From the NCBI RefSeq assembly GCF_000828615.1, contig NZ_AP012273.1:930001-994000 (forward strand): 64,000 nucleotides of DNA. Direction: 5' to 3'. Within the stretch, counting starts at the first letter, position 1. Each line of letters begins with the position of its first letter. The translations under genes were made by a program, and so were the position numbers. Positions 5,729-57,066 of this stretch are shown in pieces. This DNA comes from Thiolapillus brandeum. GTDB lineage: Bacteria; Pseudomonadota; Gammaproteobacteria; Chromatiales; Chromatiaceae. The notes beneath the pieces were generated by a model that was given only the letters and a program-made list of their open reading frames with translations, had not been told where the DNA came from and searched no databases.

Positions 5729-5897
5729 TTAACAGGCTGTTGAAAAACACCATTTTTCGGCAGCCTGATTGCCGCACAAGGAAGTGCGGCCATTTTCAAT
5801 GGCCATCAGTCATTGAAAATGGAGGAAAGACAAAATCGCATTTTTATCTTTCCGAGTTGAAAAAGCCCATGGAAGGGCTTTTTCAACATCCTGTTAA
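5729..5897. repeat. Family A hairpin-array element, copy 1
   Basis: The 169 bp element is bounded by near-perfect 19-base inverted repeats (TTAACAGGCTGTTGAAAAA, one mismatch). Inside are five stems in a row: 5735-5765 (GGCTG/CAGCC), 5771-5790 (GCCGCAC/GTGCGGC), 5790-5822 (CCATTTTCAATG/CATTGAAAATGG), 5824-5853 (GGAAAGA/TCTTTCC) and 5856-5887 (GTTGAAAAAGCCC, closed by ATGGAA). A second full copy is at 54896-55064 and a right-end fragment at 27859-27901. It lies 74 bp upstream of the minus-strand DUF3016 gene, in its presumed promoter region. Confidence 0.88.
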
Positions 5898-27837: not shown

Positions 27838-27858
27838 ATGGGCTGCACCGCCAGCCGG

Positions 27859-27901
27859 GATGAAAAAGACCACGGAAGGGCTTTTTCAACATCCTTGTTA
27901 A
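27859..27901. repeat. Family A element, right-end fragment
   Basis: This is the last stem and right terminal repeat of the family A element (GATGAAAAAGACCACGGAAG to CCTTGTTAA), nearly identical to the corresponding part of copy 2. The stem TGAAAAAG/CTTTTTCA could end transcription of the preceding gene. The left part of the element is missing and an esterase relic abuts it. Confidence 0.8.
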
Positions 27902-54895: not shown

Positions 54896-55064
54896 TTAAA
54901 AGGCTGTTGAAAAACACCATTTTTCGGCAGCCTGATTGCCGCACAGGGATGTTCGGCCATTTTCAATGACCATAAGTCATTGAAAATGGAGGAAAGACAA
55001 AATCACATTTTTGTCTTTCCGAGATGAAAAAGACCACGGAAGGGCTTTTTCAACATCCTTTTAA
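54896..55064. repeat. Family A hairpin-array element, copy 2
   Basis: This 169 bp copy has the same length, orientation and stems as copy 1 at 5729-5897. The outermost bases differ but pair: TTAAAAGG here with CCTTTTAA, against TTAACAGG with CCTGTTAA in copy 1. It lies between the convergent napC and HDOD genes, 95 bases after the former and 38 after the latter. Confidence 0.88.
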
Positions 55065-56534: not shown

Positions 56535-56542
56535 ACTTACTA

Positions 56543-56823
56543 TTAACCCGGCGACCAAGTATGCCTGTTTCAGGACGCAGAGAAGGGCGCTGAACAAGGC
56601 GTGGCGCGCAGGCAATGGCCCAGTCCTTGGCAAGGGCCACAACGTAGTGCAGCGACCTTCTCTGCGTCCCTAACTTATTGATGTTGTGCCGAAAGGCCAA
56701 GCTGTGCTGCCCCACGGACAGCGTTGCCACCGCTTGCAGTAGGCGCGCTACAGCGGCGCGGCGGCGCCTTGCCGTGAAGCAGCACAGCTTGGCTGAACCA
56801 GACCTACTTGGTCGCCGGGTTAA
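56543..56823. repeat. Family C element with nested perfect inverted repeats
   Basis: The 281 bp element has perfect 19-base ends (TTAACCCGGCGACCAAGTA at 56543-56561, complement at 56805-56823). Inside are two further perfect 14-base inverted repeats side by side: GGACGCAGAGAAGG (56573-56586 with 56656-56669) and CCAAGCTGTGCTGC (56697-56710 with 56779-56792). It would fold as one outer stem with two arms. TA flanks both sides, as in a TA target duplication. It encodes nothing credible and looks like a MITE. Confidence 0.88.
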
Positions 56824-57066
56824 TAATGCCACGTCTATCACTCCTTTTTATCTCCTGCTCATCTCTCAGCAGGACAGGATTACACGTGGGTCAATTTTCC
56901 GTGCAAATTACCGCTTCAGGTGGGGCAGTTGTGAATGCGATCCAACATTCGTCATTTGATGAGATGCTCGAAATAATTTGTGAAATGGCGAAATGGTGAA
57001 AATCCCGTCCTGGAGCAGATTGAAAAAAATATCAGGAAAAACTGCCTGTTAGGTTTCACGTCAGGA
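56824..57066. other. Regulatory region upstream of the FadL-phenol hydroxylase cluster
   Basis: No gene is present. The segment lies where enhancer sites for a sigma-54 activator would be expected. One weak dyad, TTTGA with TCGAAA at 56955-56973, lies about 95 bases before the -24 element. It is not a good match to known XylR/DmpR sites, so no activator site is called. Confidence 0.45.

Follow-up and report, generated by a model that had tools for sequence, protein, structure and literature searches.

A MITE of Thiolapillus brandeum whose conserved RNA core is predicted to carry CsrA-binding hairpins

Two 169-nt segments of the genome of the sulfur-oxidising bacterium Thiolapillus brandeum (5729–5897 and 54896–55064 of the window, the 64,000-nt stretch of DNA analysed here) share five consecutive hairpins and are 93% identical, which raises the question of whether they are mobile DNA, a structured RNA or both. 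MITEs are usually regarded as inert relics of insertion sequences. An earlier note on the window had reported the two copies together with a right-end fragment; all are present (Table 1), and the five hairpins are borne out by the minimum free energy of copy 1, which is −81.2 kcal/mol compared with −38.8 ± 3.7 kcal/mol for shuffled sequences (z = −11.6). The chromosome of strain Hiromi 1 is 3,129,661 bp long and is accompanied by two plasmids (PMC4136832); the genome searched here amounts to 3.15 Mb in a main contig of 3,129,662 bp and two small contigs. Genome-wide collection of the repeat, a check that the note had proposed, gave 56 near-full copies with common ends and several fragments. 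It also gave six or seven short forms that lack most of hairpins 3 and 4 as well as the 3′ arm of hairpin 2. The common orientation that the note had remarked on is confined to the window, and both strands are used across the genome.

Table 1. Coordinates of the element, its hairpins and its target-site duplications in the window.
Feature	Positions	Strand	Basis
Target-site duplication, left, TTAA, copy 1	5729..5732	.	Direct 4-bp YTAR repeats genome-wide
MITE body, copy 1, 161 bp, CAGGCTGTTGAAAAA...TTTTTCAACATCCTG	5733..5893	+	Alignment of copy ends
Hairpin 1, copy 1: left terminal repeat then its own inverted copy	5733..5767	+	Fold
Hairpin 2, copy 1, CsrA-type, GCCGCAC[AAGGAA]GTGCGGC	5771..5790	+	Fold, core alignment; consensus in PMC7652899
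Hairpin 2 ANGGAN hexaloop, copy 1	5778..5783	+	Fold, loop columns
Hairpin 3, copy 1 (CATTTTCAATG...CATTGAAAATG): stem covaries, loop variable	5791..5821	+	Fold, core alignment
Hairpin 4, copy 1 (GGAAAGACAAAA...)	5824..5853	+	Fold
Hairpin 5, copy 1: right terminal repeat preceded by its inverted copy and the loop, which is the second of CsrA type	5854..5890	+	Fold, hairpin-5 loop survey
Hairpin 5 ANGGAN hexaloop, copy 1 (ATGGAA)	5869..5874	+	Fold, hairpin-5 loop survey
Target-site duplication, right, TTAA, copy 1	5894..5897	.	Direct 4-bp repeats genome-wide
MITE fragment: hairpin 5 and right end only, loop ACGGAA (~27872–27877), then GTTAA	~27855..27901	+	Sequence
Target-site duplication, left, TTAA, copy 2	54896..54899	.	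Alignment of copy ends
MITE body, copy 2	54900..55060	+	Alignment of copy ends
Hairpin 2, copy 2: loop AGGGAT, one stem mismatch	54938..54957	+	Alignment
Hairpin 5, copy 2: loop ACGGAA (55036–55041)	55021..55057	+	Alignment
Target-site duplication, right, TTAA, copy 2	55061..55064	.	Alignment of copy ends

It is nearly certain that the repeat is a MITE, as the note had suggested: it is short (161 bp), multicopy and free of a transposase gene, its body ends in the terminal inverted repeats CAGGCTGTTGAAAAA / CAGGATGTTGAAAAA, and it is flanked by 4-bp direct target-site duplications, mostly of the form YTAR. Identical 4-mers flank 28 of the 56 copies (TTAA in 15, TTAG in seven, CTAA in three, CTAG in one and others in two), and all ten informative, non-palindromic flank pairs in the genome are direct (TTAG/TTAG seven times and CTAA/CTAA three times), none being inverted. 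Since TTAA is palindromic, a direct duplication had been mistaken for part of a 19-base inverted repeat with paired changes. A true inverted repeat of about 15 bp is left once the outer four bases are assigned to the target site, and the idea that the outer changes reflect conserved pairing of the ends is lost with them; covariation of an RNA was rejected for these positions. The outermost C-G versus A-T difference is a single case, and the copy at C1:1631679 has A...G there. Duplication of 4 bp in direct orientation argues for a DDE mechanism and not for a single-strand (REP/REPIN-like) one, the marks of which are a GTAG-type foot and a RAYT transposase.

The filled and empty states are resolved within the genome itself. 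The copy at C1:886416 interrupts a transposase gene that is IS3-like by sequence, and two uninterrupted versions of this stretch, at C1:2953474 and C1:637554, match the joined flanks with 100% identity and have a single CTAA. Comparison with relatives, also proposed earlier, succeeded in part: the genes next to window copy 1 adjoin without the element in two congeners, and the joined flanks of copy 595605 align straight across in several, with a junction too diverged for the duplication to be read. The short forms have spread without the 3′ arm of hairpin 2, from which it follows that the RNA module is not needed for movement. One of these forms (L093:764-880) is abutted by an IS701-family element, the end of which begins TTAATTCTACTTTGTCA and which has apparently inserted at the TTAA duplication of the MITE. 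The genome also has scattered partial copies, some of them reduced to hairpin 5 alone (L040, L041, L044, L048 and 27855–27901 of the window); a lone hairpin 5 may have been kept as a terminator or as a site for CsrA.

A likely partner in transposition resides in the same genome. The chromosome and both small contigs carry an IS5-family element (NCBIfam NF033581, 272 bits; DUF772 and DDE_Tnp_1; L091/L092/L095) with the structure TTAA or TTAG, CAGGGTGTTGAAAAACCC ... CGGCCTG, TTAA or TTAG. Its ends match those of the MITE strongly without being identical and its duplication is of the same type, so that, judged by these sequences, it is compatible as the source of transposase. The IS701 element (L093/L094) was rejected as parent since its ends differ. 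When the transposase of this genome was used as query against 19 other carriers, no close relative was found in 18 and a weak partial match in one. No copy of the MITE was found on plasmids or phages by blastn. The window also holds a 33-nt inverted-repeat pair (56541–56573 and 56793–56825, 91% identity, 219 nt apart, TATTAACCCGGCGACCAAG...), which probably represents a second repeat family; a similar sequence (TATTAACCCGGCGACCAAA) abuts the MITE copy at C1:2152416.

The inner part of the element is distributed far more widely than its ends. In blastn searches of relatives nearly all congeners give full-length matches and other families give matches to the core only. A covariance model (R1) built on hairpins 2–4 finds this core in 62 of 369 sampled Gammaproteobacteria (E ≤ 1e-4) and, at E ≤ 1e-5, in 41 of 399 genomes of a phylum-wide sample, and the majority of these 41 belong to a second class of the phylum. 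When named genomes were scanned with a sequence pattern, the matches listed were all gammaproteobacterial and included Sedimenticola, Chromatiales, Thiotrichales, Porticoccaceae and Lysobacterales. The core is bordered by at least five unrelated terminal repeats, the main end-types being CAGGCTGTTGAAAAA, GAGGGTGTCGCAAAA, GGAAGCTCTGAATAA, GGGAAACTCTGAATTG and GGGCACCTTGAAAAATT, often with a YTAR duplication. In most end-types each terminal repeat has an inverted copy of itself on its inner side, with which it forms hairpin 1 at the left end and hairpin 5 at the right. In one complete relative (G075, L165:1440-1740) hairpins 2–5 are repeated in tandem, as ~2.3 units of 121 bp with no separate left ends.

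Among 37 diverse cores, 13 of the 20 base pairs of hairpins 2 and 3 show compensatory change. Double-change cells number 72 in these hairpins, compared with 15 in shuffled data, and pairing is retained at 92%, compared with 35–49% in controls with slid positions. To judge by this pattern of change in the aligned sequences, what has been kept is an RNA structure with two GGA loops. The proposal of a structured RNA module thus survives on the compensatory changes in the internal stems across genera and on two invariant GGA loops; the paired terminal changes, being mostly target-site duplication, no longer contribute to it.

Hairpin 2 has the form AC[ANGGAN]GU, with the loop closed by a C-G pair and the adjoining pair being A-U or G-C. 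Its loop columns read A in 36 of 37 cores, a variable base, G in 37, G in 35, A in 37 and again a variable base. The 37 cores were gathered by similarity and the constancy of this loop alone could be biased, and hairpin 5 offers a fairer test because the 102 loci examined for it were picked by the hairpin-2 pattern alone, with three hairpins downstream. GGA lies in the loop of hairpin 5 in 92 of the 102 loci, compared with two for hairpin 3 and four for hairpin 4 (Fisher p ~1e-40, a value that overstates independence given the limited number of genomes); a second hairpin caller places it there in 64 of 78. Every end-type has a wholly different hairpin-5 stem, yet NGGAN persists in the loop, as an ANGGAN hexaloop in the host end-type and as five nucleotides in others. 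Members from the second class agree, their hairpin-5 loop also being NGGAN.

This geometry, which the note does not mention, is that of ligands of CsrA/RsmA, CsrA being a global regulator. The SELEX consensus of CsrA is RUACARGGAUGU, most selected ligands present GGA within a six-nucleotide loop with the upstream AC paired to the downstream GU, and RsmE contacts an ANGGAN hexaloop with variable N positions (PMC7652899). Hairpin 2 has the same A(N)GGA loop in a hexaloop closed by AC/GU, on a 7-bp stem that is longer than in most SELEX ligands, and the congener G005 (L103) reads GUACAAGGAUGU exactly. With hairpin 5, each element RNA contains two CsrA-type sites, and on these sequence grounds the + strand RNA is likely to bind CsrA at both hairpins. 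The two loops are separated by ~85 nt along the chain, which is above the 10–63 nt over which CsrA bridges sites (PMC7652899) unless hairpins 3 and 4 shorten the distance spatially. The host CsrA is present with its usual sequence, and a check of 45 carrier genomes detected csrA in 44, a co-occurrence that is weak evidence given how common the gene is in these classes. One carrier genome (G527) gives nine csrA matches, and the host has a second, diverged csrA-like stretch with an in-frame TAG (L136:1501-1623), possibly a pseudogene. The start region of the IS5-family transposase (L091:850-900) reads ACAUGGACAAACGAUG / CCACAUGGACAAACGAUG, with a CsrA-like ACANGGA motif overlapping the likely ribosome-binding site; if CsrA represses this transposase, RNA from the MITE could relieve the repression, although this is a single case.

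The explanation that we regard as probable is that the element is a transposable, transcribed and predicted CsrA-binding module on a MITE mobilised by an IS5-family transposase. Such a transposase, with YTAR as its target, would mobilise the non-autonomous element, the cargo of which would be a conserved RNA module instead of a gene. The copy examined contains no promoter-like site, so transcription must come from neighbours, and read-through from host promoters in the + direction would yield an RNA with five local hairpins. Each terminal repeat would be locked in its own hairpin, keeping the two ends from pairing with one another. The GGA-containing loops of five or six nucleotides (ANGGAN) in hairpins 2 and 5 would serve as CsrA/RsmA recognition elements and could occupy the two faces of one CsrA dimer, with hairpins 3 and 4 as spacers. 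The upstream gene reads into the + strand in about half of the copies, which would place the module in the 3′-UTR of that gene; in about half, a neighbouring gene runs antisense to the element, and on that strand the loops read UCC and not GGA. The many sites in a genome could thereby act as transcribed CsrA decoys, bring recipient 3′-UTRs under CsrA control or do both. Whether binding would result in a decoy, 3′-UTR control or insulation is speculative.

Several other explanations deserve consideration. Mobility and IS5-like ends would suffice to account for the copies if this were an ordinary IS5-type MITE whose hairpins are by-products of its origin and whose GGA loops, inherited as passengers, have no protein partner, and the spread of short forms without an intact hairpin 2 fits such a view. 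However, the stems show compensated changes and the GGA of both loops stays constant next to freely varying N positions, the hairpin-5 loop outlasts complete replacement of its stem, and a non-coding passenger is not expected to keep its loops across families and two classes, all of which makes this explanation unlikely. A mobile terminator or 3′-end module, with hairpin 5 terminating bidirectionally and the element retained at gene ends, is unlikely. The terminator role suggested in the earlier note does suit hairpin 5 of the host end-type (GCCC...GGGCTTTTTC), in which a GCCC-loop-GGGC stem is followed by UUUUU, with a similar arrangement on the reverse strand. The right end is turned towards the 3′ end of a gene in 33 instances to 14 (p 0.008), the left end is without preference (25 to 26), end placements within 15 nt number 26 for gene 3′ ends and two for gene starts, and in 19 copies the right end is within 15 nt of the 3′ end of an opposing gene, all of these counts being based on rough gene calls. 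However, YTAR contains TAA or TAG, so the choice of target by itself leads to insertion at stop codons, and much of the placement may arise in this way. Several end-types with the GGA loop intact, the common GGAAGCTCTGAAT type among them, have no U-run, and terminator function therefore cannot be the conserved property; moreover, a scan gave no terminator call for hairpin 5, and termination needs no GGA in the loop.

The conservation of the loops across all end-types would also suit a partner other than CsrA, such as the anti-Shine–Dalgarno sequence of the ribosome (GGA resembles part of the Shine–Dalgarno sequence), another RNA- or DNA-binding protein or perhaps the transposition machinery. 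The variable base before GGA, however, leaves weak Shine–Dalgarno matches (ACGGAU, AUGGAC), the ends of the resident IS5 element have no such hairpins, and AC[ANGGAN]GU is the geometry known from ligands of CsrA/RsmA, so that a different partner appears highly improbable. With its pair of GGA hairpins and what may be a terminal stem-loop, the element could also give a free-standing sRNA, as a multicopy sponge gene of the CsrB/RsmZ type turned mobile, and sRNAs derived from MITEs are known in Coxiella (PMC5896051). A self-contained sRNA gene was rejected given that the examined copy has no promoter-like site of its own; in addition there is no Rfam match at the gathering score and each unit has two strong sites only. 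A free sRNA is thus an improbable reading, and a transcribed CsrA decoy or 3′-UTR tether is more likely.

With IS5-mobilised MITEs the element shares short length, lack of coding capacity, high copy number, terminal inverted repeats, a 4-bp YTAR duplication and a compatible IS5-family element, but it adds a five-hairpin core with two invariant GGA loops that outlast changes of end-type, and it folds each terminal repeat into its own hairpin. With CsrB/CsrC and RsmX/Y/Z it shares hairpin loops with GGA, two or more sites on each RNA and the AC/GU-closed hexaloop, but it is mobile and present in many copies, has two sites only and, in the copy examined, no promoter was found. Neither the window nor ten relatives give a match to any Rfam family at its gathering score, and a known family was rejected on these grounds; the rsmX model scores 13.1 against a cut-off of 56. 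The best weak match is TD-2 RNA (RF03162; 26.9 bits, E 0.024), and membership of this family was rejected because its gathering score is 48.7 bits. TD-2, TwoAYGGAY (RF01731) and Bacillaceae-1 are structured RNAs with two A(N)GGA-loop hairpins, as here; the latter two have been proposed as CsrA binders, and none is reported as transposable in the same paper (PMC4333381). QMITE1 and QMITE2 of Coxiella, the sources of CbsR sRNAs, are likewise gammaproteobacterial MITEs that give structured RNAs, but are larger or have different direct repeats (2–3 nt; 7–9 bp), and CsrA is not mentioned in the paper describing them (PMC5896051). Nor does CsrA appear in a 2024 review of prokaryotic MITEs, and a literature search, with subscription journals and preprints mostly outside it, found no link between CsrA and MITEs, one Rfam update naming both without linking them. 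A MITE with a conserved double CsrA-type hairpin as cargo and with exchangeable ends thus appears to be an undescribed variant.

A core of a MITE has been kept as an RNA structure over dozens of families and in a second class, with its ends exchanged for those of unrelated elements. It is quite possible, and we put this forward tentatively, that it belongs to a widespread superfamily of transposable CsrA-binding RNA modules, in which a parasitic or domesticated core has kept two CsrA sites and swapped its terminal repeats to use different transposases, flooding genomes with CsrA sites that titrate CsrA or wire new transcripts into the Csr network. If CsrA does bind, genomes with very many copies must hold a large CsrA sink, and mobile DNA would have supplied CsrA sites again and again, with implications for the rewiring of the Csr network.
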